Positions 4,843-40,663 of a stretch of 64,000 nucleotides of DNA are shown one piece after another. This DNA comes from Platanthera guangdongensis (Eukaryota; Streptophyta; Magnoliopsida; Asparagales; Orchidaceae), in NCBI GenBank assembly GCA_039583875.1, contig CM077166.1:84442564-84506563 (forward strand), in the 5' to 3' direction. The notes beneath the pieces were generated by a model, which was given only the letters and a program-made list of their open reading frames with translations, did no database searches and was not told where the DNA came from. Numbering within the stretch: the first letter of the stretch is position 1; every line of letters starts with the position of its first letter. Both the position numbers and the translations under genes were made by a program.

Positions 4843-5738
4843 TGAAAGATATGGTACCTAAACACCTAGAGGGGGGGGGGGGGGGGTGAATAGGTGACCT
4901 AATCCTTTTTAACTTTTGTTTGGCAGCACAACAGCAATTTCACAGAATTCTACAGCTAACAGCAATTACAGCATATAAACAGTAATTCCACAGCACAGCA
5001 CAGCACAACACAGAAGACACACTAATTTATAGTGGTTCCCCAATCTTTGGGTACATCCACTTTCCCCCTTCGCCTATCTAGCAGTGTACTAGATTCGGCC
5101 AAACTTCTCCACTAACTCAGAACCCAACTAGGTTCCTACCTCAGGCCCAAAGCCTTACACTCAGCCAAAAGGCCTACACTCAGCCACCCAGGCCTACACT
5201 CAGCCAATTAAGGCCTACACTCAGAGTTCTTCAACTCCTACACTCAGGCAATCAAGCCCTACCCTCAGCCTTTATAATATAGGCTTACAATTCTCTCAGA
5301 TCCAATGGATCCTACAAGTTAAAATAGAAATACAATTGCTAACTCTACAACTCAGAAAATAAGAGAGGAGTTGAGAGATTCTTGAAGAGTTCTTGGAAGA
5401 ACTCAGTTAGATCCAAACTGACTTAGCTTCCTTCAAAGCTTCTTGATTAGAACTGAATTAGTCTGAATCTTCTGCAGTTGTTCCTTGACCTCTGCTTCTT
5501 GAAATCCAGATGACTCTGAATTCTTCTTCTCAGCCTTAGTTCCAAAGACTGAATTCTTGGTTGGAGCTCTCTCTCTCCAACTTCTTAGATCTGCCGATGA
5601 ACAGCAAGATCTTCTTGTGTTGATACTCAATATACCACTTTTACAAAGATCTGAACTCTCTCTGTCAAAAACTTTTTCAACCACTTCTATATTACTTCAT
5701 CTATCTTGATCAATCTCTGTCTGTAAACTATGGGTGCC

Positions 5739-5746
5739 TATTTATA
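5739..5746 (-). promoter_or_regulatory. TATA box of 3' LTR
   Basis: TATAAATA on the minus strand within GCCTATAAATAGGC, downstream of the palindrome array. Marks the U3/R promoter. Confidence 0.8.
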
Positions 5747-5902
5747 GGCTTCCTTCATGGTAACCGGCTGGTCCGGTTCATAACAGACTTCTGATATCTC
5801 TGACAGTTGATGTAGACCGGCTGGATCGGCAGCTGTCTTGTCAACCAGTCACTTCTTGAAATTCTCTAACTGTCAGATAGTGTCGAGACTTTCTGTTCTT
5901 AA

Positions 5903-6812
5903 GTGTCGACACTTATAGGCCAAGTGTCGACACATGTTGTGTAAGTGTCGACACAAGTCTACAAGGTGTCGACACAATTCCTTGTATGTCTCGACACAGA
6001 TTCTTCTGCATGTGTCGACACTGAAATTTAGTGTCGACACAAATACTTGTACTTCATTCTTTAACTGTATTCTTCTAAGTGTCGACACATCTCCTTTGTG
6101 TCGACACATCTTCACGTGTTAATACTGTCAAGTGTCGACACTGCTTCTTGGTGTCGACACAAGTCTTCACTTTTGTTTCTTCAGCTGAGTGTCGACACAT
6201 TCCTTTAGTGTCGACACTTGTACTTAGAATATTTTGTAACTGTTCTGTTCTTTGCTAAGTGTCGACACAGCTCCTTGTGTCGACACTTTCTTCAAGTGTA
6301 GAGTCTTCAATTAAGTGTCGACACATTGTGCTGGGTGTCGACACTTTCTTCAAGTGTTGACTCTTCTGGTTGTGTGTCGACACATTGTGCTGAGTGTCGA
6401 CACTTTCTTCAAATACTGACTCTTCAGCATAGTGTCGACACATTGTGTTGAGTGTCGACACTTACTTCAAATACTGACTCTTCAGCATAGTGTCGATACA
6501 TTGTGTTGAGTGTCGACACTTTTACTTAGACTCTGCAGACTTTTGCTGAGTGTCGACACAGCTCCAAGTGTCGACACTTTCTGGTGTAGACACAGCTCTT
6601 CTAGGTGTCGACACTTCTGCTAAGTGTCGACACAGCTTTTCTGCATACTTCTTCACTGAGTGTCGACACAGCTCCAAGTGTCGACACTTTCTGTCTGGTG
6701 TCGACTCTTCATTCCAGGTGTCGACACAATGACTCCAAGTGTCGACACTGCTTGTCTGGGTGTCGACACAAGCTTTCTCAAGTGTCGACACTTTCCCTCT
6801 GGGTGTCGACAC
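5903..6812. repeat. GTGTCGACAC palindrome array in 3' LTR U3
   Basis: I count 32 exact GTGTCGACAC decamers (SalI core, perfect palindrome) plus near matches (GTCTCGACAC, GTGTCGATAC, GTGTAGACAC, GTGTCGACTC). Spacing is irregular, roughly 20-60 bases, often as close pairs. The linkers (CTTCAAATACTGACTCTTC and similar) are partly repeated. The array ends about 150 bases upstream of the TATA box in transcription direction. Open frames rich in VDT and CRH peptides across it are artefacts of the repeat. Confidence 0.95.
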
Positions 6813-6957
6813 ATGGACTTAGAAACTTTTAGCTTCAGTCTAGTGAATACCTAACCTGCACAAGTAACTTAAACACACATCAAATACACTATGATGTATA
6901 TCATTGAGTTAGGTGAGGCTTCTTCAAATCAGGTACATTTGACCAATGTACCCAACA

Positions 6958-6968
6958 ATCTCCCCCTA
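6958..6968 (-). other. Polypurine tract next to the 3' LTR
   Basis: TAGGGGGAGAT on the minus strand abuts the TGTTGGG start of the 3' LTR. It is the plus-strand DNA primer site. The 290 bases between it and the extra ORF stop are AT-rich with no further feature. Confidence 0.85.
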
Positions 6969-7257
6969 TTTGGAGAAGTCATAACCCTTAGTCAATGATA
7001 TACACCACTTATAATTAAAAATTATAAAATGATGTAAAACAGGTATATGTCAACAGAGTTAAACTTAAACATGTAATAAAGCACACATGTATACTCATTC
7101 AGCATTACAGAACAAACAAGAATTAGACACATTCATCTGAACAATCATGAAATTTATTTAACAAAAATTGTTCAAACATTGTTGTTAATACATTTTCAAT
7201 GATTTACACAAAATGTTTGATGTAACAGATTACAACATTCTTCAGTTTAATCTTAGT

Positions 7258-10080
7258 CTAATTCTGCTCTGGTTCTTTTATGACTATGCCCTTTCCAGCT
7301 TGCACTTTGGCCTTTACAGCAGCAGCAGCAGCAGGCTCAGCATCAGCAGGCTTCTTCCCTTTGGAGTCCTTCTTCTTCTGTTCTTCAGCCTTGATTTTTT
7401 GCCTCTCAAAGTAATGATAGGGCTTAGGAAAGTACTTGCTAGGCTCCACAGCTGTTGGAGGTAGCTTTCCTAACTTAGCCTTCCTTCTATGTTGGACAAT
7501 GGCTTCCTGCCTACTCTCATGCTTCCTCCATTCTGCCTCTGAGAACCACTTGTTCCTCTCATGGGCATTGTCCTTGGCTGCTTTCCAGGCTGTGAGAATG
7601 ATGTTCCTAGAAGTAGGACTCCACTGTTCAAAATCTGGTTTTTGCTCAGCAAGTTCCCTGAACTTCTTCTTTGATAGTCTAGTCTCTTCTTCTTTGTCCA
7701 AAGCCTCTTGCATAGCTGCTGTAATAGGTTGAACAACCTTTTCCAGAACAATATTAGGCTTACCAGCAGTTGGACTATACATTGTGCTTACATCAGCATG
7801 AACCATGTCAAAATCTGGAGGTGGATAGATCACCTGAGCTACTTCCTGTTGCTCACCTCCAAGATATGCACTTTGAATACCAGATTCAGCTACATTGTCA
7901 TCATCACACAGGGGAGGATAGCCCAGTGTAGCTCTGATGGAATTAGAAATCCATTTGGCATGGTCAGAGCTAGCTTTGACTAACACCCTCTCCCCCTTTA
8001 TGACTTCTTGGGCTACATGATCTCTCACATCATCCTTTTGGAATCTAATCTGACTGTCCAAGTACCTGATTCCTTCCTTAAAATAAGGTCTAAGCTTTGT
8101 AAGCTGTTCAGAAATGACCTTCTGTGAATCTTTAATGGCAGTCTTGACAGCAGCAAGTTCTTCTTGAAAAGCTTTATCAAATTCAGCCTTGGCAGCATCA
8201 GTAGAAGTAGATGGATCAGCAGACTTATTCTTTAATTCAGTCACTATAGCATTGTGGGAGGCTGTCAGATTATCATTCATTCTCAATTGATTTTCCAGCA
8301 CATAGCCTTGCTTCTGTGCTATATCATCTACTTGAGACTTTATTTTCTCCTGGTGAGTTGCCAAATAGACCACTGCATTACCACCCTTGTGGAAGCAGTC
8401 AGTCATTTCCTTCTTATTCAAATTCATTTCAAACCTTATTGATTTGATATCTTGAGCTAGATCAAATTGTAGGGACTTGTGGCCTTCATCAATATATGTC
8501 TCTATAGCCCTTCTTTGCTCATCCAGCTTAACTTGCATTGCTACCATTAAGCCACTGTAATCTGTTGATGGAGCTTGTTGAATTAGAGAGTGTTGAGCAA
8601 CTGTTTGTAGAGCCTTCTTGTAGCTCTGACTCCTTATTTTGAAAACAAAGAATTGTTTCTTCTTAGCTTGCTGAGTTTCATCATCCTCAGACTCTGAAGT
8701 GCTGGCAATATCAACCCTGTCCTTAGGGCTTGATGGTTTTTCAGTTTGCACATCTTGTGCCTTCTCAGTATCTAGCCTTATAGGCTCTTCCTGAACTTCC
8801 AGGTTCTCCCCCTCAACAGCAGCACCCTTCTCTTCATCAGCAGCAGTCTTGTCCATGTCAAAGTCCTCTTGATCTAGATTCAGAAAGAGGTCTTCCATTG
8901 TATATTCTGGGGGTGACTGAACAGGAGATGTACTGTGTTCATCAGCTACAACAGATGTGTCTTGGAGAACAACATCTGGTTCTTGAGTTGCTTGCTGATT
9001 TTGCTGATGGTCATCAGACAAATCAGAATTTATTATAGAAAAATTGAAAGTATTAAGGTCAACAAGTACCTCTTGGATGAGGATGGTGGCTTGCTCACTC
9101 TCCAGTGTAGATGGTTCTGCTACACCTGGAAGCTCCCCCTGGCTTGGATCCCTAGGGATGGGGCTAGTGTGAGGCAGCTCCCCCTGAATCTCAGCCACAT
9201 CTTGACCAGCAGGGGTCTTTTCTACTATCTCCTCCTCTTGCTCATCAGGTGTAAACACCACCTGTTCTTCACTCTCAGAACTGCTTGAGGACACTTGTGT
9301 CACAACAGCAGTTTTTCTTTTCTTCCTGGGAGGAGAATCTTTCTTAGTAACTTGTTTCTCAGGGGTGGTCAATTCCTTTGACAGCACCCTTTCCCACCTG
9401 GAGAAGATCCTCATGTCCATCCTTCTCATGTGGTTGATTTTAGCTCCAGCAGCAGTGCTCATTACCTCTGGAATTGATCCAGCCAGGTAGAGACTTAATA
9501 TCCTGCCCAGATTGGGCTTCTTCAGACTTTCCTTTATCTTCTCAAAGATAACCATTGACCAATCTGTTCTTAGGTTGAAGATAATTCTGGTCATGACATT
9601 GAACATGGAGGCTGACACCCTGTCATGCCCTCCAGTTTTACTGAGAATGACCTTGCCTACTATCTCTGACAGAAATTTTCCTTGAATGTTCATGCCTTTT
9701 CTGTTAAAGACAGAACCTATTTTCATCTTAGAATCAAGACCACACCAGACCAAAGCTTCCCTGGTCTTGGATGTAGAAATTTCTTCTTCTTCTTGAGTCT
9801 TAGGTAGCTGAAGTACCTTTCTCAGACTTTTGGGTGATACCTTGACCTTGGTTCCATGCACTCTGGATTTGATTCTGTATCCAGAGTCATCCACAGTTGC
9901 TCCAGTAAGAAATTCAAGCACCTCTTTCTTCCATATCTTGGATGGTTCTGAAACCAAGAACTCCAATCCTGAATCGGTGACTAGGGTTACCACCGACTTG
10001 ATTTCTTGATCGCCATCGTCAAAAGCACCTCGCACGAGCTCATACCCTTCGTTAACATTCTCCTCGAGCTTGGGAGCCAT
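7258..10080 (-). CDS. Extra ORF in the env-like position of a Sirevirus-like element
   Basis: 940 codons from the ATG at 10080 (AAACCCTA-ATGGCT context). The frame is open 28 codons further upstream, but that part runs through palindrome units and lies in the likely leader. No retroelement enzyme motif is recognised. Residues 1-240 look globular (KVKVSPKSLRKVLQLPK, FNVMTRIIFNLRTDWS) and may belong to the poorly understood plant-transposon-associated domain group; this is tentative. A basic nuclear-localisation-like PPRKKRKT lies at about 250-256. A long acidic Ser/Glu/Gln-rich part follows, then a probable coiled coil (about 500-700) and a Lys/Ala-rich tail. I see no signal peptide or membrane helix, so a true envelope role is doubtful. 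It is intact while pol is broken. Confidence 0.8.
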   Translation of the reverse strand: MAPKLEENVNEGYELVRGAFDDGDQEIKSVVTLVTDSGLEFLVSEPSKIWKKEVLEFLTGATVDDSGYRIKSRVHGTKVKVSPKSLRKVLQLPKTQEEEEISTSKTREALVWCGLDSKMKIGSVFNRKGMNIQGKFLSEIVGKVILSKTGGHDRVSASMFNVMTRIIFNLRTDWSMVIFEKIKESLKKPNLGRILSLYLAGSIPEVMSTAAGAKINHMRRMDMRIFSRWERVLSKELTTPEKQVTKKDSPPRKKRKTAVVTQVSSSSSESEEQVVFTPDEQEEEIVEKTPAGQDVAEIQGELPHTSPIPRDPSQGELPGVAEPSTLESEQATILIQEVLVDLNTFNFSIINSDLSDDHQQNQQATQEPDVVLQDTSVVADEHSTSPVQSPPEYTMEDLFLNLDQEDFDMDKTAADEEKGAAVEGENLEVQEEPIRLDTEKAQDVQTEKPSSPKDRVDIASTSESEDDETQQAKKKQFFVFKIRSQSYKKALQTVAQHSLIQQAPSTDYSGLMVAMQVKLDEQRRAIETYIDEGHKSLQFDLAQDIKSIRFEMNLNKKEMTDCFHKGGNAVVYLATHQEKIKSQVDDIAQKQGYVLENQLRMNDNLTASHNAIVTELKNKSADPSTSTDAAKAEFDKAFQEELAAVKTAIKDSQKVISEQLTKLRPYFKEGIRYLDSQIRFQKDDVRDHVAQEVIKGERVLVKASSDHAKWISNSIRATLGYPPLCDDDNVAESGIQSAYLGGEQQEVAQVIYPPPDFDMVHADVSTMYSPTAGKPNIVLEKVVQPITAAMQEALDKEEETRLSKKKFRELAEQKPDFEQWSPTSRNIILTAWKAAKDNAHERNKWFSEAEWRKHESRQEAIVQHRRKAKLGKLPPTAVEPSKYFPKPYHYFERQKIKAEEQKKKDSKGKKPADAEPAAAAAVKAKVQAGKGIVIKEPEQN

Positions 10081-10179
10081 TAGGGTTTGAAGATTTAGTC
10101 TTGAGAAGAGAGAAATGTCGACACAAGAGTTTTGGTCTCGAAACTTTTGAAAGCGTGTCGACAAACAAAGACAGAATCC

Positions 10180-10187
10180 TATTTATA
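10180..10187 (-). promoter_or_regulatory. Internal TATA box for the extra ORF
   Basis: TATAAATA on the minus strand (context AAGGTATAAATAGGATT), 100 bases upstream of the ATG at 10080. With the array upstream and the leader ending AAACCCTA-ATGGCT it looks like a complete plant promoter. The same order, array then TATAAATA, occurs in this element's LTRs. Promoter activity is inferred. Confidence 0.7.
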
Positions 10188-10232
10188 CCTTTCTGGTTTG
10201 AAGACGAATAGGCGGGATAGCGAGCTAAACAT

Positions 10233-10562
10233 GTGTCGACACTGTCAATAAGTGTCGACACTGACTTATAATGTCTCGACACTCATGTGTCGACACAAGT
10301 TTAGTCAACAGATTTTATGTGTCGACACTTGGCTAAGTGTCGACACCACTATACTCGACATGTAGTCGAGACTTTACTTAGAAAATTCTGAGTAAAACTT
10401 AAGTGTCGACACCTTATTGGATGTGTCGTCACCTACTCGACATGTGTCGACACTAACATTCTGAAGTGTCGACACCAACTTCCTAGATGTGTCGACACCA
10501 TTTTCCTGAAGTGTCGACACTTACTATTCTGTGTCGACATAGACTTGTCTATGTGTCGACAC
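10233..10562. repeat. Internal GTGTCGACAC array upstream of the extra ORF
   Basis: Eleven exact GTGTCGACAC decamers by my count plus near matches (GTCTCGACAC, GTGTCGTCAC, GTGTCGACAT). They lie between the pol stop and the start of the extra ORF. The word is the same as in the LTR U3 but the linkers differ, so it is not a simple copy of an LTR segment. A TATA box follows about 45 bases downstream in transcription direction. Confidence 0.93.
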
Positions 10563-10595
10563 CTTTTTACTTAGCCAATTTTTAGTTCTGTAAAC

Positions 10596-12974
10596 TTAGT
10601 CTAAGTTTATCATTCCTAGTTCAATTTTGAACCTATTGAACTTAGCTTCTTCTAAGGGCTTAGTGAACATATCAGCTATCTGATTATCAGTTCTAACATA
10701 TTCAAGTGCAATATCATTTCTTTCTACATGCTCCCTAAGAAAGTGATATTTAATCTTAATATGTTTAGTTCTACTATGTGATACAGGATTGTTAGCTATT
10801 GAAATAGCACTTGTAGAATCACAGTAAAGTGGAGTTCTACTTACCTGAAATCCATAGTCTTCTAACTGATGTTGAATCCAAAGAAGTTGAGCACAGCAAC
10901 TTCCTGCAGCTACATATTCTGACTCAGCTGTGGAAATAGCCACACTGGTTTGCTTCTTACTACTCCATGAAATGAGTCTCCCACCTAGGAATTGACAGGA
11001 TCCAGTAGTGCTCTTTCTATCTTCTTTGCATCCTGCAAAGTCTGCATCTGAATAGCCTGTTAGATCAAAATCTCCATTCCTAGGGTACCAGAGGCCTAGA
11101 TAGGGAGTGCCCTTTAGATATCTCAAGATTCTCTTGACTGTAGTCAAGTGAGACTCTTTAGGGCAGGCTTGATACCTGGCACAAACACATGTAGCATACA
11201 TAATGTCAGGCCTACTTGCAGTCAAGTATAGTAGGGAGCCAACTATCCCTCTATACAAGGTTTCATCTACAGGTTTCCCTGCATCATCCTTGCTTAGAGA
11301 CATACTTGACCCCATAGGAGTCTTCATGGTACTGGATGAATCCATACCATACTTCCTTATGAGTTCTAGGGTGAACTTGGACTGACATATGGATAGACCA
11401 CTTGCAGTCTGTTTAACTTGGAGACCTAAGAAAAACTTCAGTTCTCCCATACTACTCATCTCAAATTGACTTTGCATAAGCTTTGCAAACTTTTTGCAAA
11501 GACTACTTTCAGTAGACCCAAATATAATGTCATCTACATATATTTGGACAAGTATGACTTTGCCTCTAGATTCCCTAAGGAATAGAGTCTTATCTATTTT
11601 CCCCCTTGAGAACTTGTTCTCAATGAGGAAACTAGATAGGGTTTCATACCAAGCTCTAGGTGCTTGTTTTAACCCATATAATGCTTTCCTAAGTCTATAG
11701 ACATAATGTGGAAGAGTAGGATCAACAAAACCTGCAGGCTGCTCCACATAGACTTCTTCTTTCAAATTACCATTTAGGAATGCTGACTTCACATCCATTT
11801 GGTATACCTTGAATCCTTGATAGGTTGCATAGGCCAAGAACATCCTTATGGCTTCCAGTCTGGCTACTGGAGCAAAGGTTTGATCAAAATCAATACCTTC
11901 TTCTTGCCTATATCCTTTTGCAACCAGTCTTGCCTTATTCTTAATGATGACTCCTTGTTCATCTAACTTATTTCTGTAGATCCACTTAGTTCCTATAACA
12001 TTGTGGTCTTTAGGCTTTGGAACCAGCTCCCAAACCTTGCACCTTTTGAACTGATTGAGCTCTTCCTGCATTGCTTCAGTCCACTGTGGATCTTGTATAG
12101 CTTCTTCAAATTTCTTTGGTTCTACTTGAGACAGAAAACTTGAATATACTACAACATTCTGATTTCTGCTCCTTGTCTGAACACCTTGTCTTGGATCTCC
12201 AATAATTAGCTCTACTGGATGATCTCTTAGATGCCTGTTGGCTGGAGGCATCCTTACTTCTGGTTGAACTTCTACAGCATCTTCATCATGCTGAGTTCCT
12301 TGTACTTCTTCAGCTCCTTGTACATGTAGTTCTCCCCCTGGACATAAGCCATCTTCTTCTACTTGCTGTCTTGCAGCAGGTACATCTTCTATGGTTAGCT
12401 TGTCCATCTTCTTAGTAAGACCTGTGGGGCTGCACACACTACTAGACAACTCATTGTTAATTAGTTGTGTTTCATCAAAAACTACATGCACAGACTCCTC
12501 TACAACTTGAGTAGTCAAGTTGTAGACTCTATAAGCCTTACTATAATTGCTGTACCCAACAAACACTCCCTCTTGGGACTTGGCAGCAAACTTAGTTAGG
12601 TAAGACTTTCCATTGTTAAGTATGTAGCATTTACAACCAAAGATCCTAAAGTAGGATAAATTTGGTTTCCTGCCTTTCACAACTTCATAGGGGGTCTTAT
12701 TTAACCTTTTAGTGATGGTAGCCCTATTTATCACATGGCATGCAGTGTTAACTGCTTCAGCCCAGAAATACTCTGGTAGTGATGAATCACTTAATAGGGT
12801 TCTACCAGCCTCTATCAAGGTCCTATTTTTCCTTTCAGCAATGCCATTTTGCTGAGGTGTTCTAGGTGAAGAGAATTCTTGAAATATCCCATAGTCTTCA
12901 CACAGCTTTGTCATGCTTTCAGACTGAAACTCAGTACCATGGTCACTTCTAATTTTGACCACTGTACAGTTCAA
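10596..12974 (-). CDS. pol: Pol, C-terminal part: integrase core, RT and RNase H
   Basis: 792 codons, no internal stop. It contains the second and third integrase catalytic residues ([21 protein letters not shown]), the integrase C-terminal region ([15 protein letters not shown]), reverse transcriptase from about residue 300 (WELVPKP...[27 protein letters not shown]) and RNase H ([30 protein letters not shown]), ending near [10 protein letters not shown]. All catalytic motifs look intact. Only the upstream frameshift at about 13005 separates it from protease. Its stop is 34 bases from a palindrome array that precedes the extra ORF. Confidence 0.93.
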
Positions 12975-13762
12975 TTCATTCTGAATTTGCTTAACAAACT
13001 ATAAAAGACACTAGGTGTTTCAGATTTCTGCTTTAAGAAGAACACCCAGGAAAACCTTGAGTAGTCATCAACAACTACAAAGGTATAGACCTTCCTACCT
13101 AAGCTGTGAACTGGCATTGGACCAAATAGATCCATATGCAAGAGGTATAAACACCTCACAGCATCTTTGTTATCTAAGCTTCTAAAGGTAGATTTAGTCT
13201 GCTTGCCCTTTTGACAAGCTGAGCAAATGCCATCCTTGACACACTTAACTTGAGGACCATTCCTCACTAACTCTTTGCTAAAGAGTTTGCTAATAGTCTT
13301 GTAGTTAAGATGAGCTAGCCTCTTGTGCCACTTGACACAATGAGAGATTGTCTCATCAGCTACAAGACAAACTGGAGAACCATTGTTCTCAATCATGATG
13401 TCTAGACAGTAGACATTCCTCTTTCTATATCCTGTCAAAATGATCTCTTGATCACTTGACCTCTTGATATGACAACCATTTTTAACAAATGAGATGTCAT
13501 ACCCTACATCACTTAACTGACTTATACTAATGAGGTTGTGTTTCAACCCTTTAACATAAGCCACTTGAGTAATGGTAACAAGGTTTGAAGAGATGTTACC
13601 AAACCCTTTGATGATTCCTTTTTCAGAACCACCAAAGGTCACTTTAGGACCATTTTTGATTGGAATGTAGTCCTTCAGTAGTCCCCTTGTTCCAGTCATG
13701 TGTCTGGAACATCCACTATCCAAGTACCATGTAGGGGTATGGCCACTTGGATTCACCTGCAA
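12971..13762 (-). CDS. pol: Pol, N-terminal part: protease and start of integrase
   Basis: 263 codons. It carries the aspartic protease motif [11 protein letters not shown] near the start, the pre-integrase zinc region ([10 protein letters not shown] and CSACQKGKQ) and the first integrase Asp ([10 protein letters not shown]), then [12 protein letters not shown]. The frame ends at 12971 because of a one-base-scale indel near 13000-13010. Beyond that point the expected integrase sequence ([16 protein letters not shown]) runs in the frame of the following ORF, and the four-base ATGA overlap at 12971-12974 is only a consequence. An evolved translational frameshift site is less likely, because it would fall inside the integrase core. 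Confidence 0.9.
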
Positions 13763-13768
13763 AACAAA

Positions 13769-15808
13769 TTACTTAACCTTAGAACCCAAAGCAAACTTGG
13801 GTCCTTGGTGATTGTTAGTTTGCAACTTGACATAGCAACCTGCTGGCTTTCCACCAGGTAACTTGCTACTCAACTTGGCACTGGCATTGTGCCAACAATC
13901 CAAGGCAAAGTGGACAACCTTGCCACAACACCAGCATTCAAACTTGTTGTACCTTTGCTTAGGTACAACCTTTGCTGTCTTGACTACAGCAGGCTTGTTG
14001 AATGTTGAGGCTTTGCCCTTGGACTTGGACTGATCCTGAACAGTCCTAGCTGGTTTAATAAAACCCAATCCAGCCTTTCCTTTATGATGAACAAATTCAT
14101 CAATCAAGGGTAGCACTGATTTAGGTTTTGAAAACCTAGCAACTAGCTCTTTTTCCTTCTGGAGATTAATCTCCAGTTTCTTAATTTGATCATTCTTAAA
14201 TGTAATAGTACCCATCTGAATCACAGTAATGTGTTTCAGCCTGGCTACTTCATTCAGTTTTTGATCATACTGCTTCTCAAAATCTGTTGCAGCTGCCTTG
14301 AGATCAGCAATCTCCTTTGCCTGACTTTTGGCTAGGATCTTGCTTTTCTTATAGTCTTGCAACAGTACTTGGTATTCATCTAAGAGCTGATGAATATCTC
14401 CCTCAGATTCAGAAACACTTCCATCACTTGATGAAGATGATTCTGACTCTGAACTAGAACTGGAATCTGAACTTTGAGTTGGACTTTGTACCTGACTAGG
14501 TCCTGGCTGCTCCAGGATTTTGGTACTTTCAGTCAATGCCATCAGTCCTTGACACTGACACTCTTCTTGTTCATAGATTGATTCCATGATCTGCATAAAC
14601 TCTTCTTCTTCTTCAGCAAATAGCCCTATATAGGCTTCAGCATCTGTCTCAGTGTCTGAAGAAGAAATGTCTGAAAGAGTCTTCTCATTCTTTGCAACAA
14701 AGGACTTCTCCTTCTTTCCTTTGAAGTGAGTCTTCTTTTTGTCACTGGATTCTTTCCTTCTTTCAGGACAATCTGCAATAACATGACCCTGTCTATTGCA
14801 GCAGTAACACACAATCTTAGACCCAGTTGCCTTACTAGTCTTTGTCTTTTTCTTATCCTTCTTTGAAGGCTTCTTCTCCTGATACTGGACTTCTTTCCCT
14901 TTGGAATATGAAGGTCTGGACCTCCACTGTTTCTTCTTAAGGAATTTCTGAAAATATCTGGTGAATGCAGCAAAATCTTCATCACTTTCACTGCTTGTAG
15001 ATTTAGTGCAAACAGACTCATCAGATTCTGATTCAACTACCTCTGGAGGAGGAGTTGATGACTTAGTCCTGTTCTTTCTAGGTACTTCTGACTTAAAGGC
15101 AACAGTCCTTTCCCTGTGTTCAGTCCTTGTTGACTTTTCCTCCTCTTTTCTTACTGACAATTGCATCTCATAAGATAATAACTTGCCAAACAGTGTGGGA
15201 GGAGGAATTTCTCCCAACTTTGCCATTTCTCTGATGGCACAGATCTTGGTGTCCCAGTCTTTGGTTAGGGACCTTAAGAACTTATCATTTAATTCATAGT
15301 TAGTGAACTCTCTTCCATAGGACATGAGTTCATTAACAATTCTATAAAACTTCTTGTAGCATTCAGTGATGCTATCTCCTCTTCCTTGCCTAAAGCTCTC
15401 ATACTCTTGATTAAGCAAGGACTTTCTATCTTGCCTTACTTCTTCAGAACCTTCCATATAGACTATAAGAGTGTCCCACATCTCTTTTGCTGTCTTACAA
15501 TGAATTAAGTTCTGGAAGGTGGCATCATCAATGGCACTTACTATTATGTTTTGTGCCCTTTTGTCCATTGTAGCTAGGACAATCTCATCCTTGGTCATCT
15601 CAGAAAAATCCTTTGGAGTTCTCTGTGTAGCATCCAAGACTGAAATCTTCATGGGCACATAGGGCCCTTCTTTGACTGTGATGTAGATCCTAGGGTCAGA
15701 GGCCTCCATGAACAGCCTTACCCTTTCTTTCCAGATTCCAAAAATCTCCTTTCTACATATGGGCAGTTTCATTGAACCCAATTCCTTGTGATTCTCTGAA
15801 GAACCCAT
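13769..15808 (-). CDS. gag: Gag polyprotein of the Sirevirus-like element
   Basis: 679 codons, intact; the ATG is about 100 bases after the primer-binding site. The N-terminal half (about residues 15-220) is a UBN2-type copia gag domain (FGIWKERVRLFMEA, EMWDTLIVYMEGSEEV, LNDKFLRSLTKDWDTK). A Ser/Glu-rich linker follows, then a zinc knuckle CYCCNRQGHVIADC (about 333-346), an acidic Ser-rich stretch (about 430-460), a predicted coiled coil (about 470-560) and a second knuckle CWCCGKVVHFALDC near 622-636. Long gags with extra C-terminal sequence are a Sirevirus trait. It forms the virus-like particle and binds RNA. The stop at 13769 lies six bases before the pol ATG-bearing frame. Confidence 0.92.
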   Translation of the reverse strand: MGSSENHKELGSMKLPICRKEIFGIWKERVRLFMEASDPRIYITVKEGPYVPMKISVLDATQRTPKDFSEMTKDEIVLATMDKRAQNIIVSAIDDATFQNLIHCKTAKEMWDTLIVYMEGSEEVRQDRKSLLNQEYESFRQGRGDSITECYKKFYRIVNELMSYGREFTNYELNDKFLRSLTKDWDTKICAIREMAKLGEIPPPTLFGKLLSYEMQLSVRKEEEKSTRTEHRERTVAFKSEVPRKNRTKSSTPPPEVVESESDESVCTKSTSSESDEDFAAFTRYFQKFLKKKQWRSRPSYSKGKEVQYQEKKPSKKDKKKTKTSKATGSKIVCYCCNRQGHVIADCPERRKESSDKKKTHFKGKKEKSFVAKNEKTLSDISSSDTETDAEAYIGLFAEEEEEFMQIMESIYEQEECQCQGLMALTESTKILEQPGPSQVQSPTQSSDSSSSSESESSSSSDGSVSESEGDIHQLLDEYQVLLQDYKKSKILAKSQAKEIADLKAAATDFEKQYDQKLNEVARLKHITVIQMGTITFKNDQIKKLEINLQKEKELVARFSKPKSVLPLIDEFVHHKGKAGLGFIKPARTVQDQSKSKGKASTFNKPAVVKTAKVVPKQRYNKFECWCCGKVVHFALDCWHNASAKLSSKLPGGKPAGCYVKLQTNNHQGPKFALGSKVK

Positions 15809-15895
15809 GTTTCTTGATTTTCTTGAAACTGTTTCCTGACTTACACTGAATCTGCCAAACTGGATCTCCTCAGACAGTTAGTCCTTTTTGAGGAA

Positions 15896-15911
15896 CCTGG
15901 CTCTGATACCA
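15896..15911 (-). other. Primer-binding site (initiator-Met tRNA)
   Basis: TGGTATCAGAGCCAGG on the minus strand, two bases after the 5' LTR end. It is complementary to the 3' end of plant initiator-Met tRNA, where minus-strand DNA synthesis starts. Confidence 0.93.
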
Positions 15912-16803
15912 CTTGAAAGATATGGTACCTAAACACCTAGAGGGGGGGGGGTGAATAGGTGACCTAATCCTTTTTAACTTTTGTTTGGCAGCACAACAAC
16001 AATTTCACAGAATTCTACAGCTAACAGCAATTACAGCATATAAACAGTAATTCCACAGCACAGCACAGCACAGCACAGAAGACACACTAATTTATAGTGG
16101 TTCCCGAATCTTTGGGTACATCCACTTTCCCCCTTCGCCTATCTAGCAGTGTACTAGATTCGGCCAAACTTCTCCACTAACTCAGAACCCAACTAGGTTC
16201 CTACCTCAGGCCCAAAGCCTTACACTCAGCCAAAAGGCCTACACTCAGCCACCCAGGCCTACACTCAGCCAATTAAGGCCTACACTCAGAGTTCTTCAAC
16301 TCCTACACTCAGGCAATCAAGCCCTACCCTCAGCCTTTATAATATAGGCTTACAATTCTCTCAGATCCAATGGATCCTACAAGTTAAAATAGAAATACAA
16401 TTGCTAACTCTACAACTCAGAAAATAAGAGAGGAGTTGAGAGATTCTTGAAGAGTTCTTGGAAGAACTCAGTTAGATCCAAACTGACTTAGCTTCCTTCA
16501 AAGCTTCTTGATTAGAACTGAATTAGTCTGAATCTTCTGCAGTTGTTCCTTGACCTCTGCTTCTTGAAATCCAGATGACTCTGAATTCTTCTTCTCAGCC
16601 TTAGTTCCAAAGACTGAATTCTTGGTTGGAGCTCTCTCTCTCCAACTTCTTAGATCTGCCGATGCACAGCAAGATCTTCTTGTGTTGATACTCAATATAC
16701 CACTTTTACAAAGATCTGAACTCTCTCTGTCAAAAACTTTTTCAACCACTTCTATATTACTTCATCTATCTTGATCAATCTCTGTCTGTAAACTATGGGT
16801 GCC

Positions 16804-16811
16804 TATTTATA
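16804..16811 (-). promoter_or_regulatory. TATA box of 5' LTR
   Basis: TATAAATA on the minus strand, the same context as the 3' LTR copy. Expected promoter of the genomic transcript covering gag and pol. Confidence 0.82.
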
Positions 16812-16967
16812 GGCTTCCTTCATGGTAACCGGCTGGTCCGGTTCATAACAGACTTCTGATATCTCTGACAGTTGATGTAGACCGGCTGGATCGGCAGCTG
16901 TCTTGTCAACCAGTCACTTCTTGAAATTCTCTAACTGTCAGATAGTGTCGAGACTTTCTGTTCTTAA

Positions 16968-17877
16968 GTGTCGACACTTATAGGCCAAGTGTCGACACAT
17001 GTTGTGTAAGTGTCGACACAAGTCTACAAGGTGTCGACACAATTCCTTGTATGTCTCGACACAGATTCTTCTGCATGTGTCGACACTGAAATTGAGTGTC
17101 GACACAAATACTTGTACTTCATTCTTTAACTGTATTCTTCTAAGTGTCGACACATCTCCTTTGTGTCGACACATCTTCACGTGTTAAAACTGTCAAGTGT
17201 CGACACTGCTTCTTGGTGTCGACACAAGTCTTCACTTTTGTTTCTTCAGCTGAGTGTCGACACATTCCTTTAGTGTCGACACTTGTACTTAGAATATTTT
17301 GTAACTGTTCTGTTCTTTGCTAAGTGTCGACACAGCTCCTTGTGTCGACACTTTCTTCAAGTGTAGAGTCTTCAATTAAGTGTCGACACATTGTGCTGGG
17401 TGTCGACACTTTCTTCAAGTGTTGACTCTTCTGATTGTGTGTCGACACATTGTGCTGAGTGTCGACACTTTCTTCAAATACTGACTCTTCAGCATAGTGT
17501 CGACACATTGTGTTGAGTGTCGACACTTACTTCAAATACTGACTCTTCAGCATAGTGTCGACACATTGTGTTGAGTGTCGACACTTTTACTTAGACTCTG
17601 CAGACTTTTGCTGAGTGTCGACACAGCTCCAAGTGTCGACACTTTCTGGTGTAGACACAGCTCTTCTAGGTGTCGACACTTCTGCTAAGTGTCGACACAG
17701 CTTTTCTGCATACTTCTTCACTGAGTGTCGACACAGCTCCAAGTGTCGACACTTTCTGTCTGGTGTCGACTCTTCATTCCAGGTGTCGACACAATGACTC
17801 CAAGTGTCGACACTGCTTGTCTGGGTGTCGACACAAGCTTTCTCAAGTGTCGACACTTTCCCTCTGGGTGTCGACAC
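16968..17877. repeat. GTGTCGACAC palindrome array in 5' LTR U3
   Basis: Same array as in the 3' LTR at a constant offset of 11,065 bases. The GTGTCGATAC variant of the 3' copy (near 6489) is an intact GTGTCGACAC here, giving about 33 exact copies. Confidence 0.95.
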
Positions 17878-18027
17878 ATGGACTTAGAAACTTTTAGCTT
17901 CAGTCTAGTGAATACCTAACCTGCACAAGTAACTCAAACACACATCAAATACACTATGATGTATATCATTGAGTTAGGTGAGGCTTCTTCAAATCAGGTA
18001 CATTTGACCAATGTACCCAACACTTGG

Positions 18028-33600: not shown

Positions 33601-36442
33601 ACCCCTTTGGGTAAGAATTGGCCCCTCCATGCCCCAAGCTCACTCTTGCCCTAACTAACCCCTAAAGGGCCATACTTTGGTCTCACCAAAACCTATTCAA
33701 ATCAAACCCAATTTGGCTGAGATTTTTATCATAGTCATACCATGACCCTAGGAGACAGACACCAAAAGTTTGGTGGGTCTAGAGATAATTAGACCCCTTA
33801 AATAATTCATACATGGTTTATTAAATTTCTACAAAAACTTAAGAAAAATGTTTTCCAAAAATTCTCATTTTTGGATATGTTATAAAGTTTGGTATTAATG
33901 TCTCATTCTCCGAATTTCAAGTCACTTGGAGGTCAGGATTGATGGGGACACCCTAAACAATCTCTGATTAAGCCTAGGTGTAGATCTCACCAAAATGAGT
34001 GTTGTGGTATGACCTGAACTCCAAATTGGTTAAACTAATTTTAAAATAAAATAGTTTCATAGGGCTACGACTTTCATGTAGACCACTTTTACTCTAGGGG
34101 AACCTAAGTATTTTTAAAAATTAATTTAAAACAGCCCAATAACTGTGACAGGAACTAAAATAAAATTAATTAATATATAATCGTTGTCATGAATCTTAAA
34201 GAATAATCGGATGGACCATGGCTTTCTTCTTCCTCCAGCCATGGCCTAGATCTGCTCGACCTGGAGGATACTCCAAGCCCAATTGCCGGCCCTCCAGCCA
34301 CCACCCCAACAAACCTCCGCCGCCAACACCTCTATTGAGGTGAGGGATATCGGCAGGAGGTTTTTTGGCCACCGGAGATGGCGGATTGCGGCGAACTCGA
34401 TATTTCATTTTTGCAGAAAAACTAGTGGAAATGTTTCACTGGATCATGCTCAATTGAGCCTGATTCACATCTCTAATGAATCCTTTGATCTAGCCCACAA
34501 AGGAGTTGAGGAGGATCTTAGTGTAGGGCTGGAATCAGGCCGATCGCCGTGCCACCATTGCCGAAATTTGTGATTTCTGGTGCTCTGCAACTGCACTACA
34601 AAGTAGCTCGATTCATTCAGGTAAGTGGTGGGAAAGACTCCTCACAGTCCACTGATGGTGTTTAAAGCCACAGTTGGGCAGGGGAAAGGCTAAGGCATCA
34701 ATGACCACTAATGGACATTGAAAGCTTATTTCAGCCGTGGCAGTTCTCCTCCCCTAGTCACTCCCATGGCCAGGAAAACCCTTAGCCTTCTCCTACCTGA
34801 CCAGAGGAGATGATTCCAACAAGAAGAGAGGGGCTCTTGTCCTTCCAAGACATGAATGGCCTTCTCTCTCATTTTCTCACTCCTCCATTAAAGATAAAAT
34901 GGACCTTTTCTTTCTCCTAGTAATAATGGCCGAAATTGGTGATTATTTCAACATATAGGCACCCCACTAACCCATATTATTCATGGAAATAAGGTTAGCC
35001 TAAGGGGGATTGGGCTTGTGCTTGAGTTAGCCCATTCGAGCTTGTTTGACCTATTTCAAGGATTGTGTTTAACTTGGTCAAATTGACCTTTTGGGTTGAC
35101 CCTAATGGGTTTTAGGTGACCCATTCATCGAATATTCTTATTCGATGAATCGTCGAGATTCGTCGACATAACTCAACGTCATATGCAAGCACAACACTTT
35201 AAGTTAAAATCGTCGAGTGGATTTCGACGAACGTTGAAGGGAGTTCGACGAATGGCTTGCTATATTATTTTCTCGAACGAAGTTCGACGAACGTTGAACG
35301 GATTTCGGGAAGTTCGACGAACGACATGCTGTATCATTTTGTCGAACGGAGTTCGACGAGTGTCGAACAGATTTCAAGAGTTCAGCGAACGGGGTGTAGT
35401 CGACTCTCTCGATGCTTCCAGAAATCTTTCTAAGTAAAATGGCGTTGAGTGCACTCAACGCACTCAACGCCAATCTGTCTATGGCATTGAGTGCACTCAA
35501 CGCCCCGAGCCAAGATATTTCTCCAAGTAAAATGACGTTGAGTGCACTCAACGCACTCAATGCCAATCAGTCCGTCGAGTTCAGTGCACTCAATGCACTC
35601 AGCGCCCCGAGCCAGGATATTTCTCTAAGTAAAATGGCATTGAGTGCACTCAACGCACTCAACGCCAATCAGTCCATGGCGTTCAGTGCACTCAACACAC
35701 TCAACGCCCCGAGCCAAGATATTTCTCTAAGTAAAATGGCATTGAGTGCACTCAACAGACTCAACGCTGATCAGTCCATGACATTGAGTGCATTCAACGC
35801 ACTCAATGCCACGAGTCATGATATTTCTCTAAGTAAAATGGCATTGAGTGAACTCAATGCACTCAACGCCAAATAGTCCATGGCACTGAGTGCACTCAAC
35901 GCACTTAAGGCCCCGTGTGCAGATATTTTCTAAGTAACTTCCTGAACTAAATTGATGCTTCCCGAACCTGAGCGAATTCTCTTGGCTCAAAACGCGTGCA
36001 AGGGCCAACCACAAAATGACATGTTACACCTTGGAGGTAACTTGACCCTTAGCTAGGGCACTTTGACCTTTTTAGGGATAGGGTTGAATTGGGTTAACTT
36101 AGCCTCTTTGGTTGACCATAATGTGTCCTTGGTGCCCCATTGACCTCCCCTAGGGTTAGGGGTGCCATGGTGTGGTCAAATTGGCTAAAGAAAGGTCCAT
36201 TGGCCCTAGATAGATCACTTTGACCATTTTAGGGTTACGGGTGTTGTGGCGGGGTCAAAGAGTCAAGGTGAGGCCCTAAACTCAAACCTTAGGTTAGGTA
36301 ATCTGAAAGTGTTATTTGTAGACCATGGTGATCTCACCTTCATTCCTAGGTTCACTTGCTTTCTTCGGCTTCCTAGGGTTTTGTCATAACCTAGTCATGA
36401 TAAAACCACTCCTAGGGGTCTAGTTGTTTGAGAGATGTTACA
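30604..36442 (-). repeat. 5.8-kb 5' LTR (LTR C) of a chromovirus
   Basis: Minus strand from TGTAACATCTC (36442) to GGTCTTACA (30604), 5,839 bases. Collinear with the 5.3-kb LTRs at 41405 and 51795 but clearly diverged. The main difference is a roughly 0.9-kb palindrome array at 35125-36030. It holds a run of about 20 C near 33475 and long AT-rich stretches. It interrupts a copia reverse transcriptase at 36443. The rest of its element is lost beyond 29414. Short open frames within it have no homology. Confidence 0.88.
35125..35930. repeat. Palindrome array in LTR C (GTCGAAC/GTTCGAC and TTGAGTGCACTCAA)
   Basis: Two sub-arrays. 35140-35400 has GTCGAACGGAGTTCGACGA and related inverted words. 35420-35930 has five units of about 95 bases with paired TTGAGTGCACTCAACGC words and a constant AGATATTTCT-AAGTAAAATG linker. 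The period is near a multiple of three, so a 154-codon repetitive frame (ALSALNALNAN) stays open; this is not a gene. The array is absent from the homologous LTRs at 41405 and 51795. Confidence 0.92.
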
Positions 36443-37783
36443 GGGGTACAAACAGGAAGAAGACATTAATTTTGATCAAACCTTTTCCCCTATAGCAAGG
36501 TTTGAGGCCATAAGATTGTTCCATGCATATGCTGCACACATGGGATTCACAGTCTACCATATTGATGTGAAGTCAGCCTTCCTGAATGGTGACTTAAAAG
36601 AGGAACTCTATGTTGAGCAGCCTCCAGGTTTTATAGTTCCTAACTCACCTGATTCTGTTTATAAACTTAGGAAAGCTCTGTATGGGCTACAGCAAGCTCC
36701 TAGAGCATGGTATGACACTTTGTCTAGCTTTCTCATTGAGAACAAATTCTCAAGAGTGAAGATAGATAAGACCCTATTGATAAGGGAATCTAAGGGCAAG
36801 ATCATCCTAGTTCAGATCTATATAGATGACATAATCTTTGGATCTACTGATGACAATATCTGCAGGAAGTTTTCCAAACTTATGCAGTGGAAGTTTGAGA
36901 TGAGCAGTTTGAGTGAACTTAAGTTCATCTTAGGTCTCCAAGTTAGACAGACTGATGATGGCTTGTCCATATCCCAGTTTAAGTTCCCCAGGGAGTTAAT
37001 AAAGAAATTTGGTAGAAAAATTCCTCCATCATGAGAACTCCCTTGGGATCAAGTATGCCCATATGCAAAGATGAGGCAGGGAAACCTGTTAATGAAACTT
37101 TGTATAGTGGGATAATTGGTTCCCTTCTCTATCTAACTACAAGTAGGCCAAACATCTTGTACGCTACATGTGTTTGTGCTAGGTATCAGGCTTGCCCCAA
37201 TGAATCTCATTATTCAGTTGTAAAGAGAATTTTGAGTTATCTTAAGGGCACACCAGATCTTGGCCTGTGGTACTCAAGGAATGAGCAATTTGAATTAACT
37301 GGCTATTCAGATGCAGACTTTGCAGGCTACAAAGATGACATGAAAAGCACTTCTGGCACCTGTCAATTCCTAGGTTGAAAATTAGTTTTTTGGAGCTGGA
37401 AGAAGCAAACTAGTGTTGCAATTTCAACTGTAGAGTTATCATACATCTTAGCTGGTAGCTGCTGTGCTCAGTTTCTGTGGATTCAGCATCAGCTCCGAGA
37501 CTACAACCATCATATAAGTAGAAGGCCTTTATTTTGTGATTCCACTAGTGTTATTTCAATTGCTAGGAATCCTGTCTCCCATAACAGGACTAAGCATATT
37601 GAAATCAGATATCATTTCATTAGGGAGCATGTGGAATGTGAAGATATCAACATTGAGTTTGTCCCAACCGACAAGCAAGTGGTTGACAGCTTTACTAAGC
37701 CACTAGATGAAGTAAGGTTTAACACCTTCAAGTTTGAGTTGGGTATGTTAAACATGGTATATCTTCAGTTTCTCCTCATTTAG
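36443..37783 (+). pseudogene. Sirevirus-like RT and RNase H remnant
   Basis: Opens directly at the LTR C terminus within the [68 protein letters not shown] (active site), LGLQVRQ, then RNase [31 protein letters not shown], ending FTKPLDEVRF and stop at 37781. A frameshift lies near 37020 and stops at about 37033 and 37376. Confidence 0.93.
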
Positions 37784-38241
37784 TTGAAAGTTATTTTCTA
37801 TCTTACAGATGGAACTATTCTTCAGTAAAATGAAGACTCTTTAAGTGATATACCTTCAGTGGCGTCATGGTCAACTTCTGTCCAGAATGGTATAAACTAG
37901 ATTGTCTACCAAGAAATATGATAGATGATGCATTGGTTGAGGGGGAGCATGTCCAACACTACTCTAGCACTCTCATGAAGAACCTTGCTGGCAATTTATT
38001 GATGTCAAAAAGGGGGAGGAAAAGATGATCAGATGTATGATCAGGAATAGTAGCAACAATTCAGGGGGAGCAGGTGTAGTTATGTTCAACCTGCAGGCAA
38101 GGAGGAGTGGTAACTATAGATCATTCTCCAAATATATACTTTTAAATATTTTTAAAACAAAATTTCTTATTGATGCATATTACAATGTATGTCATTGACT
38201 GAATTGCTTAAGTGTTTTGACTTCCTCAAATAGAGGGAGAT
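37784..38241 (+). other. Spacer with multiple polypurine tracts
   Basis: No ORF. GGGGGAG-type tracts occur near 37940, 38012, 38065 and finally 38230-38241, abutting the LTR. Several polypurine tracts before the 3' LTR are known for Sireviruses. Confidence 0.65.
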
Positions 38242-38439
38242 TTTTGGGTCCACTGACCACAATTTGCTAGATTTGAGGAAGTCAATCTTATCAATGATAT
38301 ACATAAAGTTGTATTTGATGTATACTTGAGTTCATGCATGTAGGGATGCCCTAGCAACAATGATGGGACAAGTAGCCTAAGTGGCTAGATCCGGTAAACA
38401 CTTACCTAAGATGTGGATAGACATGAAACTGTCCATGTC

Positions 38440-39300
38440 AACAGGCGTTGAGTGAAGGTCATTCACTCAATGCTAGATGACTTATAGCACTGAGTGGAGC
38501 ATATACAGTCAAAGCCAAGGTAGTGGCAAGATGAGAAAGTGGCTAAGGCCACATTTGTTCAGTGAAGTCAACTCACTCAATACCATACAACAAAAGGCTG
38601 TGAGATAGGCTAATACAGTAAAAGCCTAAGAAGAAATGGGCAGAAAACTGGCTAAGTCCACAGGAGTTGAGTGAGTATCACTCACTCAATGCCACACTCT
38701 ATATTCGTTGAGTATTGCCTTATAACTCAAAGCCACGGAAAATCTATACTGATATTTGGCTATGTCCAAATGCGTTGAGTGTTGCTTACTCACTCAACGA
38801 CAGATAAACAAAATAAAATATGTTTAGTAGTTTGGCGTTGAGTGGAGCTTACTCACTCAATGCCAAGGAGCAGAAAAAATCTAACTAAGGCAGTGAGCAT
38901 TGAGTGAGACATGCTCACTCAACGCTCTTAACACCAAGATTCAAAAAATCCAGCTAGAGCAAAAATCATTAAGTGAGGCTTGCTCACTCAATGCTCTCAA
39001 CGCTTAAGATGCTGAAGAAGCTGGAAATTGGTTAAGGTAGAAAGCGTTGAGTGAGGAGTACTAACTCAATGCTCTCAACTCCTAAAATAAAGATAGCATG
39101 GCTAAGGTACATGGAGTTGAGTGAGGCTTGCTCACTGAACGCTCTCAATGCCAAGCATGCATAAATGGCTGAAGAATATGCCAAGGCAAAAAGCATTGAG
39201 TGACGCTTGCTCACTAAAAGCTGTCAATGCCTAGATAGACAAAATTCTGTCTAAGTGTCTTGGCATTGAGTGAAGCTCATTCACTAAACGCTTATTCTAC
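38440..39300. repeat. GCGTTGAGTGA...TCACTCAACGC palindrome array
   Basis: About twelve units of (G)CGTTGAGTGA, 4-8 bases, TCACTCAA(T/C)GC, 60-75 bases apart with GCTAAGG-like linkers. The inverted words are the same as in LTR C (35420-35930) and the copia LTR at 57420-57690. The array lies in U3, about 200 bases before TATAAAA. Confidence 0.9.
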
Positions 39301-39513
39301 TGATGCTCGATTTTAGTTAAGTGTACAGGTGCTGACGTCAACAATATCTGCAAAATCAATAAAGTCAACTAATTTCAAAACAAGCACGGAGAAGCTACAT
39401 AACACGACAAACTTTGCCTAGAAGCTACTATACGTCTTCTTCCGTTAAAGCAATGTGTAGCTGGATGCTGCAAGTGGGCCCCACAGATTTCTTAGAGCCA
39501 TTGATCGGCGAAA

Positions 39514-39520
39514 TATAAAA
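39514..39520 (+). promoter_or_regulatory. TATA box of the second Sirevirus-like LTR
   Basis: TATAAAA within GAAATATAAAAGAAAG, downstream of the palindrome array, followed by a CT-rich leader. Confidence 0.7.
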
Positions 39521-40663
39521 GAAAGGGAGTGGCCAAGAGGAAAACAACTTTTAGGGCTTTATAGATTTCAAAAGTTACGACTGGACTTCATCTTCCTCGC
39601 CATTGCTGCCGAGAAAAAGCTTGAAGTCTTTCTACAAGAACCAAAAGTTCAGTTTGCTGGTGCCATCTTCACCTACACCCACAAGATCAGATGTCTATCT
39701 TCTGAGAGAGAAGCAGAAATACAGAACAAGTTTCTGCAGATAAAAGTTGCTTCTCAGTTCAGCAAGCTCAAATATGAAGATCTACTTCTGGATCTGGGAA
39801 GAAGAAAGGACAAAGTTGTTGATTCAGTCCTGGAAAGAAAGAGGAAGCAGAGCATTTTACTGCTAGTTACTTCTAGCTCAAGATCCTTGTGGCAGTGAAG
39901 AAAACATAGAGTTGAGATAACTCAGATCAAGGGGTTATCACAGAGAAATTTCCCTGTGATAAACATAAATCAATTTCACTAATGTAGGTTCTTTTTGGAT
40001 CTGAGTTGTAGGGCTCTCCGAGCCTAAGGTAGGGCAAAATTTGTCTGAGCTGTAGGATCCAGTTTAGATCTGAGGTAGGTGGTCAACTGATCACTGAGCT
40101 GTAGGACTTGGTTTCAAGTTTGAGGTAGGTGAGTCATTCTCACCGTGTTGTATGACACTTATGCCTGAGGTAAGATCTAGCAGCAGATCTGAGTGTAGGG
40201 CCTTTATGCCTGAGATTGTAGGTGAGTCATTCTCTCTGAGGTAGGATCCCTAGTGGATCTGAGGTAGGGCTGTCCTCCTAGCCTGAGTGTAGGGCCTTTG
40301 ACCTAAGCTAGGTGATCTGCTGATCACTGAGTTCTAGGCCATTATTGCTGAGGTATAAGTCTTTGAGGAGACTGAGAGATCTTGAGGGATATGAGGTGAA
40401 AGATCTTTGGAGCAGTGTCTTGGAGAAGATCTTTGACTAACAGGAAGTTGTCAATGTGGGAGGAGAGTGGATGTAACCAAAAGTTGTGCAACCACTATAA
40501 ATCTGTGTGTGCTTTTCTGTATTGTTTTCTGTGTAGCTACTTGAAAGCTAAATACTTCCACCACACTAAGTACTAAGGAAGATAAAATTAAAAGCTAATA
40601 ATATCAGTGAAAGAGCCTATTCACCCCCTAGGTTGTAAGTAATCTTTAAAATAAAGACTTTCA

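Follow-up and report, generated by a model that had tools for sequence, protein, structure and literature searches.

A candidate internal promoter before the extra open reading frame of a Sirevirus-type retrotransposon in Platanthera guangdongensis

Described systems and the present element

The expression of the Sirevirus gene that follows pol had been raised as a question by 2002, and in the accessible portions of that literature an internal promoter was proposed and not found. Palindromes termed RM and CpG islands have been reported before the Sirevirus ENV-like gene, where an internal promoter was proposed and, in the accessible text, not conclusively identified (Bousios et al. 2010, PMC2829016). 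According to the same text, RM palindromes lay in the long terminal repeat (LTR) upstream of the TATA box and again between pol and ENV in every one of the nine elements that had both RM and ENV; of 79 linker copies, 77 stood before ENV, linker copies occurred only with an ENV-like gene, and 12 of 13 published RMs held a CGG-CCG core, Tnd-1 being without it (PMC2829016). The accessible part of MASiVEdb 2012 named stop-codon suppression and an internal promoter as routes. The present analysis concerns a young, copia-type LTR retrotransposon in a 64,000-nucleotide stretch of Platanthera guangdongensis DNA (GCA_039583875.1, contig CM077166.1, positions 84,442,564 to 84,506,563; hereafter the window). 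The element occupies 4843-18022 on the minus strand, and the module under study lies between its pol and an extra open reading frame (ORF).

As in the Sireviruses of Bousios et al., an element-specific palindrome occurs both in the LTR and before the ORF, with CpG islands in both places. Set against the accessible text on those elements, the locus differs in having TATAAATA and an AUG-free leader that fit the residues of a relative, and in that CpG is absent, not merely lower, from the remaining internal region. Its palindrome, GTGTCGACAC, is without the CGG-CCG core, like that of Tnd-1. The layout of arrays, CpG islands and a suggested internal promoter has been known since 2010 and is not new in kind; the case is a well-formed instance of a known Sirevirus feature, and what is new is two lines of evidence for a promoter and one for splicing. 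SIRE1 of soybean, also a Sirevirus with an ORF after pol, has in the available account a single stop between pol and ENV and stop-codon suppression, whereas the two are here 515 bases apart, and all frames between them contain stops. Outside the Sireviruses, comparisons are offered by foamy viruses, in which Tas acts on both promoters, and by VANDAL, a DNA transposon. The foamy-virus account combines an LTR promoter and an internal promoter in one retroelement (PMC7828637, as far as accessible); that element is unrelated, and a transactivator of the present element is hypothetical only. VANDAL and VANC resemble the present case in the short repeated noncoding motifs of a plant transposon, which differ between related elements, but binding of the motif by the element's protein was shown there (PMC5735166, accessible text), whereas here the motif is known from sequence alone. 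No TATA box or transcript for a Sirevirus internal promoter was found in the open-access literature searched, largely by listing.

Palindromes, TATA box candidate and leader before the ORF

The element probably has an internal polymerase II promoter at 10081-10562 that drives the ORF. The palindromes would serve as upstream sites for a factor that also acts on the LTR, and TATAAATA would direct initiation near 10156. The resulting mRNA would have a short AUG-free leader, its first AUG would be the start of the 940-codon ORF, and it would end at the 3' LTR. A palindrome-binding factor common to the LTR and the internal module is plausible; this factor, transcription and the start site are what we infer from the layout. 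An internal promoter is the best supported reading because the CpG island is confined to the array and the start of the ORF, and because the TATA and leader palindromes are kept in a diverged relative.

The earlier note on this DNA had placed 11 exact copies of GTGTCGACAC between pol and the ORF, followed on the minus strand by TATAAATA, a short leader and an ATG at 10080, and each of these was located as described (Table 1). When the 515-base linker was shuffled 2,000 times with dinucleotides preserved, exact copies averaged 0.0055 and never exceeded 1. The palindrome had the distribution of an RM: exact copies were common to the LTRs (33 and 32) and the pol-ORF linker (11), with 0 in the rest of the element, and at no more than one mismatch there were 37 copies per LTR, 16 in the linker and 0 elsewhere. 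TATAAATA would occur by chance in the 152 bases from array to ATG at a rate of about 1.1%, given its frequency in the window, and it occurred in 1 of 3,000 local shuffles. No ATG was present in the leader between the TATA box candidate and the start codon. Two one-mismatch palindromes, which the earlier note had omitted, lay downstream of the TATA box candidate at 10155-10164 and 10115-10124, and the former overlies the expected start site, about 30 bases past the TATA. The sequence context of the ATG is CCCTAATGGC, which had been called a good plant context; the G at +4 and the C at +5 fit this description, and position -3, which is C instead of a purine, does not. Directly 5' of ATGGC stands AAACCCTA (10081-10088), which the residues of P0010, a gene model described below, fit and which we take to resemble the telo-box of plant gene leaders. 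A TTG at 10164 was tried as a start and rejected: gene models start at the ATG instead, with MA(P/Q)K in P0002, P0003 and P0005 and MTTK in P0009, and the two alignable leader peptides require frame shifts relative to the window.

The order of array and then TATA was borne out in both LTRs, where 156 bases separate the array from TATAAATA, against 45 bases in the internal module. The linkers were also found to differ, as had been noted: with palindromes masked, internal module and LTR aligned with a score of 22, within chance (100 shuffles, 20.2 +/- 2.0, maximum 27). The core-promoter stretches had only TATAAATAGG in common, with a score of 20 (200 shuffles, 17.0 +/- 2.1, maximum 25). A duplicated piece of LTR was rejected as the source of the module, there being no linker similarity above chance.

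Table 1. Features of the element and of a second, ENV-less element in the window.
Feature	Position	Strand	Details
5' LTR	15914-18022	minus	array 16968-17877, 33 exact GTGTCGACAC; TATAAATA at 16804-16811
gag (PF14223)	13769-15808	minus	0 CpG
pol, two pieces in different frames	12971-13762 and 10596-12974 (whole 10596-13762)	minus	0 CpG
CAG/GTAAGT donor, CAGGTAAGT, RNase H end of pol	10839-10847	minus	first intron base 10844; full consensus
Internal palindrome array	10233-10562	minus	11 exact GTGTCGACAC and 3 one-mismatch copies
CpG island	9975-10562	minus	32 CpG, 16 outside palindromes; spans array to codon 36 of ORF
TATAAATA, internal TATA box candidate	10180-10187	minus	45 bases past last exact palindrome
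AUG-free leader	10081-10179	minus	near-exact palindromes, pyrimidine tract with AG, AAACCCTA before ATG
Extra ORF	7258-10080	minus	940 amino acids
Linker 3' of extra ORF	6958-7257	minus	ends in polypurine tract AGGGGGAG (starts 6967); 0 CpG, 0 palindromes
3' LTR	4843-6957	minus	array 5903-6812, 32 exact GTGTCGACAC; TATAAATA at 5739-5746
ENV-less Sirevirus-like element remnant	36453-40660		pol remnant 36453-37754; LTR from about 38244

The CpG island was called by observed over expected count. Across the internal region (6958-15913, 8,956 bases) all 32 CpGs fell within 9975-10562, where 27.6 were expected, and the remainder contained 0 against about 338 expected: 0 against 208.9 upstream (10563-15913, 5,351 bases) and 0 against 128.6 downstream (6958-9974, 3,017 bases). 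The island extended 258 bases beyond the last exact palindrome and, with 16 of its 32 CpGs outside palindromes, it is not explained by the palindromes alone. Eight of these 16 sat in codons 1-36 of the ORF, and all eight are, as judged from the codons, removable by synonymous change. Deamination of methyl-CpG leads to raised TpG and CpA; such a rise was seen for both in gag and pol, but neither in the leader nor in the first 180 bases of the ORF. The island is read as a region left unmethylated in the germ line over the history of the family; alternatively, selection for the CpGs themselves may have kept it. Other 1-kb bins of the window also dropped to 0.07-0.13 of the CpG expectation, so the loss is not peculiar to the element.

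The LTRs were poor in CpG apart from the palindromes, which contained 36 of 44 and 36 of 45 CpGs, and the stretch from array to TATA. The linkers of the LTR arrays held 1 CpG each (15.5 and 15.3 expected), so in these arrays CpGs survive almost only within palindromes. Between array and TATA there were 4 CpGs per LTR against 7.4 expected, and downstream of the TATA 1 CpG in 250 bases per LTR against 8.3 and 8.5 expected. With so few CpGs downstream of the LTR TATA, the internal island reaches further into its own putative transcript than that of the LTR.

The protein searches returned ten relatives of the ORF (P0002-P0011), each a gene model from Platanthera zijinensis or P. guangdongensis; two of the searches scored only 7,989 and 7,987 candidates sharing most words, and wider relatives were possibly missed. 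P0005 (P. guangdongensis) was 96% identical in an alignment of the first 260 residues, P0010 66% identical (ORF residues 1-337) and P0006 47% identical (ORF residues 1-456). Only P0006 and P0010 ran alignably through the leader. The leader peptide of P0006 scored 7.65 against the window leader (300 DNA shuffles, -9.08 +/- 2.22, maximum -0.35; 300 random window pieces, maximum -0.15) and that of P0010 scored 10.55 (DNA shuffles, -8.29 +/- 1.83, maximum -2.40); none of the 300 DNA shuffles or 300 peptide shuffles reached either score. In P0006 the residues GINR fell on GGTATAAATAGG (GGT ATA AAT AGG), 111 versus 109 bases before the ATG, and V-D-T and C-V-D fell on the two GTCGAC sites of the leader with matching spacing. 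Its TATA and palindrome codons fitted at 3.0 of 3 bases, against 2.35 for the remaining 23 codons in the alignment. P0010 fitted both leader palindromes and CTTCAAACCCTAATG: V-C-R-H-A, C-R-H and L-Q-T-L fell on both sites and on CTTCAAACCCTA before the ATG. The exon boundaries of these gene models are predictions, and a composite residue is possible at the start of each exon. The leader of P0011 was discarded because its alignment was within chance, although its SVD, as in the window, stands 42 bases before the ATG.

Promoter, splicing and other routes to the ORF product

Several observations weigh against an internal promoter. The CpG argument stands on a single copy of the element. Conservation of the TATA comes from one gene model, P0006, through residues and not DNA; the P0010 model begins downstream of the TATA site and is uninformative on it, and the P0011 leader alignment was not above chance (0.75; null 0.22 +/- 1.28). 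The ORF ATG has the C at -3. A predicted intron links the pol end with the leader or the ORF in four of the ten models (P0006, P0007, P0008 and P0010). Three of these, P0006, P0007 and P0010, exit pol after DYGIQ, the counterpart of DYGFQ in the window, which is the site of the donor at 10844, and P0008 exits nearby. According to the accessible text of the genome paper, RNA-seq entered the gene prediction for those Platanthera genomes.

These models bring in the alternative that the LTR transcript is spliced to express the ORF, with the array and TATA acting as an enhancer, as a silencing target or incidentally, which is possible although rather doubtful. One route would run from a donor near the 5' end to an acceptor at 10100 and use the ATG of the ORF itself; the other, a serious rival, would run from the pol donor at 10844 to an acceptor in the leader or the ORF start and yield a Gag-Pol-ORF fusion, a product obtained in SIRE1 through stop-codon suppression. 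In a search for the exact consensus on the sense strand of the element, CAG/GTAAGT at 10844 was the only copy, and shuffling the internal region 500 times produced a copy in 5.6% of cases. The discovery of this donor in pol weakens the case for a promoter and strengthens that for splicing, and the ENV-less Sirevirus-like element of the window has no donor at the matching place. Spliced ENV mRNAs have also been predicted for BAGY2 and Athila, as far as the accessible accounts go. The AG ending at 10100 was the best of nine AG sites, with 14 of 18 pyrimidines upstream (the next, at 10193, with 13 of 18), but splicing from the pol donor to this strong acceptor would not keep the frame. Two other AGs, with ends at 10144 and 10069 (the latter corresponding to the P0007 junction), would join the pol donor to the ORF in frame and without a stop, but each has only 10 of 18 pyrimidines. 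About 80 codons at the end of pol would be lost from the fusion, and the introns are themselves predictions. Splicing leaves unexplained both TATAAATAGG at the same spacing in P0006 and the retention of CpG from the array to codon 36. A spliced product could exist beside a promoter-driven mRNA.

The earlier note had proposed that the ORF is expressed from its own promoter instead of by splicing or read-through. The promoter gains from the CpG island and from retention in relatives, although expression itself is something we infer. For the array and TATA in relatives, conservation as read from gene models extends to the TATA in P0006 only and to the leader palindromes in P0006 and P0010. Stop-codon read-through from pol was rejected as a simple route, with 8, 5 and 13 linker stops by frame and the ORF and pol in different frames; the part of the proposal that set splicing aside is weakened by the AG at 10100 and the donor at 10844.

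The module may have an old LTR origin. That it is a diverged LTR remnant left by recombination, its promoter function gone, would account for the same palindrome in the same order and for TATAAATAGG in both places, but this is very unlikely: linker similarity is at chance, the array-TATA spacings differ, P0006 keeps the TATA and the leader palindromes, and the CpGs are kept here but nowhere else in the internal region. Sirevirus LTR palindromes are reportedly linked to the host small-RNA response, and the palindromes could have RNA or silencing roles at both sites, as hairpins that seed small RNAs or in packaging, with the ORF translated by re-initiation on genomic RNA. This explanation is equally improbable, since the genomic RNA has seven ATGs between the pol stop and the TATA, which is unfavourable, and it predicts neither a TATA box nor a CpG island over the start of the ORF.

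Element class, neighbouring elements and implications

The LTRs, delimited by self-comparison of the window, were 99.3% identical, differing by nine substitutions and one 6-base difference in a C run, and the element was flanked on both sides by the 5-bp target-site duplication CCAAG. From 5' to 3' it consisted of LTR, primer-binding site (PBS) TATCAGAGC, gag, pol, linker (10081-10595), ORF, linker with polypurine tract (PPT) AGGGGGAG, and LTR. The integrase match of pol was divided between two frames (overlap 12971-12974); gag stopped at TAA (13769-13771), and the ORF that follows shares its frame. In the accessible text, Sireviruses are defined by an LTR end CA, an A(T/G)TGG spacer, the PBS TATCAGAGC, and a PPT AGGGGGAG 10 bp before the 3' LTR; the linker carries several copies of the PPT, most of them following ENV, and a poly-C signal is named among their features (Bousios et al. 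2010, PMC2829016). The 5' LTR here ends in TTTCA-AGTGG-TATCAGAGC, and AGGGGGAG starts at 6967, 10 bp before the 3' LTR (6957). The poly-C integrase signal of Sireviruses lies near the LTR end; CA, ten C and TCTAGG stand near the end of the 5' LTR, and C runs occur near both LTR ends. In the linker after the ORF only the terminal copy of AGGGGGAG was present. Further copies were seen in the extra ORF (9185, 9140, 8813 and 7997) and in pol (12339). Resting on Pfam domains, similarity to gene models and the PPT, PBS and poly-C features, the class call is that the element is Sirevirus-type, not a proven member; the missing multiple PPTs are read as variation because the PPT position, PBS and poly-C features agree.

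The second Sirevirus-like element of the window, a remnant with a short linker and no ORF, contained no GTGTCGACAC and 1 CpG in a 489-base linker (15.2 expected). Its lack of linker palindromes agrees with the published rule, by which linker copies are restricted to elements with an ENV-like gene. By eye, several AGGGGGAG tracts were seen in its linker, and its LTR has a palindrome-like repeat of its own around GTTGAGTGA/TCACTCAAC; an LTR array therefore does not need the ORF. Elsewhere in the window, 59473-60230 held five exact GTGTCGACAC (59604-59931) in CpG-rich repeats that start after TGTAACACCCC; a copia pol remnant apparently surrounds them. The stretch looks like the start of a Del/Tekay LTR, so that an unrelated element seems to use the same palindrome. 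Direct 5.3-kb copies, 96.7% identical, were present at 41405-46676 and 51795-57072 and are perhaps very long LTRs of another element, and at 35420-35937 units of about 100 bases repeat in tandem and carry GTTGAGTGCACTCAACGC palindromes.

The ORF product matched PF20167 (Transposase_32) below the cut-off, a lead only (27.7 bits against 45, E 2.9e-6, residues 38-184). No transmembrane segment was found in it, the highest 19-residue Kyte-Doolittle mean being 1.25, and an envelope label is not supported by its sequence. A profile search of the PDB gave four chains up to E 1, the best at 0.28 and none meaningful, and structure prediction for the first 260 residues gave a mean pLDDT of 38, too low for use. 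By analogy with the anti-silencing VANC of VANDAL transposons or Tas of foamy viruses, the 940-amino-acid product might be the palindrome-binding factor itself, a self-activating, anti-silencing regulator, although this is unlikely. Its own promoter would stay open, with the island including the ORF start, while the LTR stayed mostly closed; the product would then open the LTRs through the same palindrome, and the element-specific palindrome at both sites would reflect coevolution of protein and site. Against the strict form of this idea, the ENV-less element has a different palindrome-like LTR repeat without the ORF.

A TATA box candidate that fits the residues of a relative, in the sole CpG-bearing part of a 9-kb internal region, sets a precise start site against a precise splice donor, which makes the question testable. 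If the promoter is real, the extra gene could be expressed without genomic RNA, and a regulatory role for its product would be likelier than a structural one.

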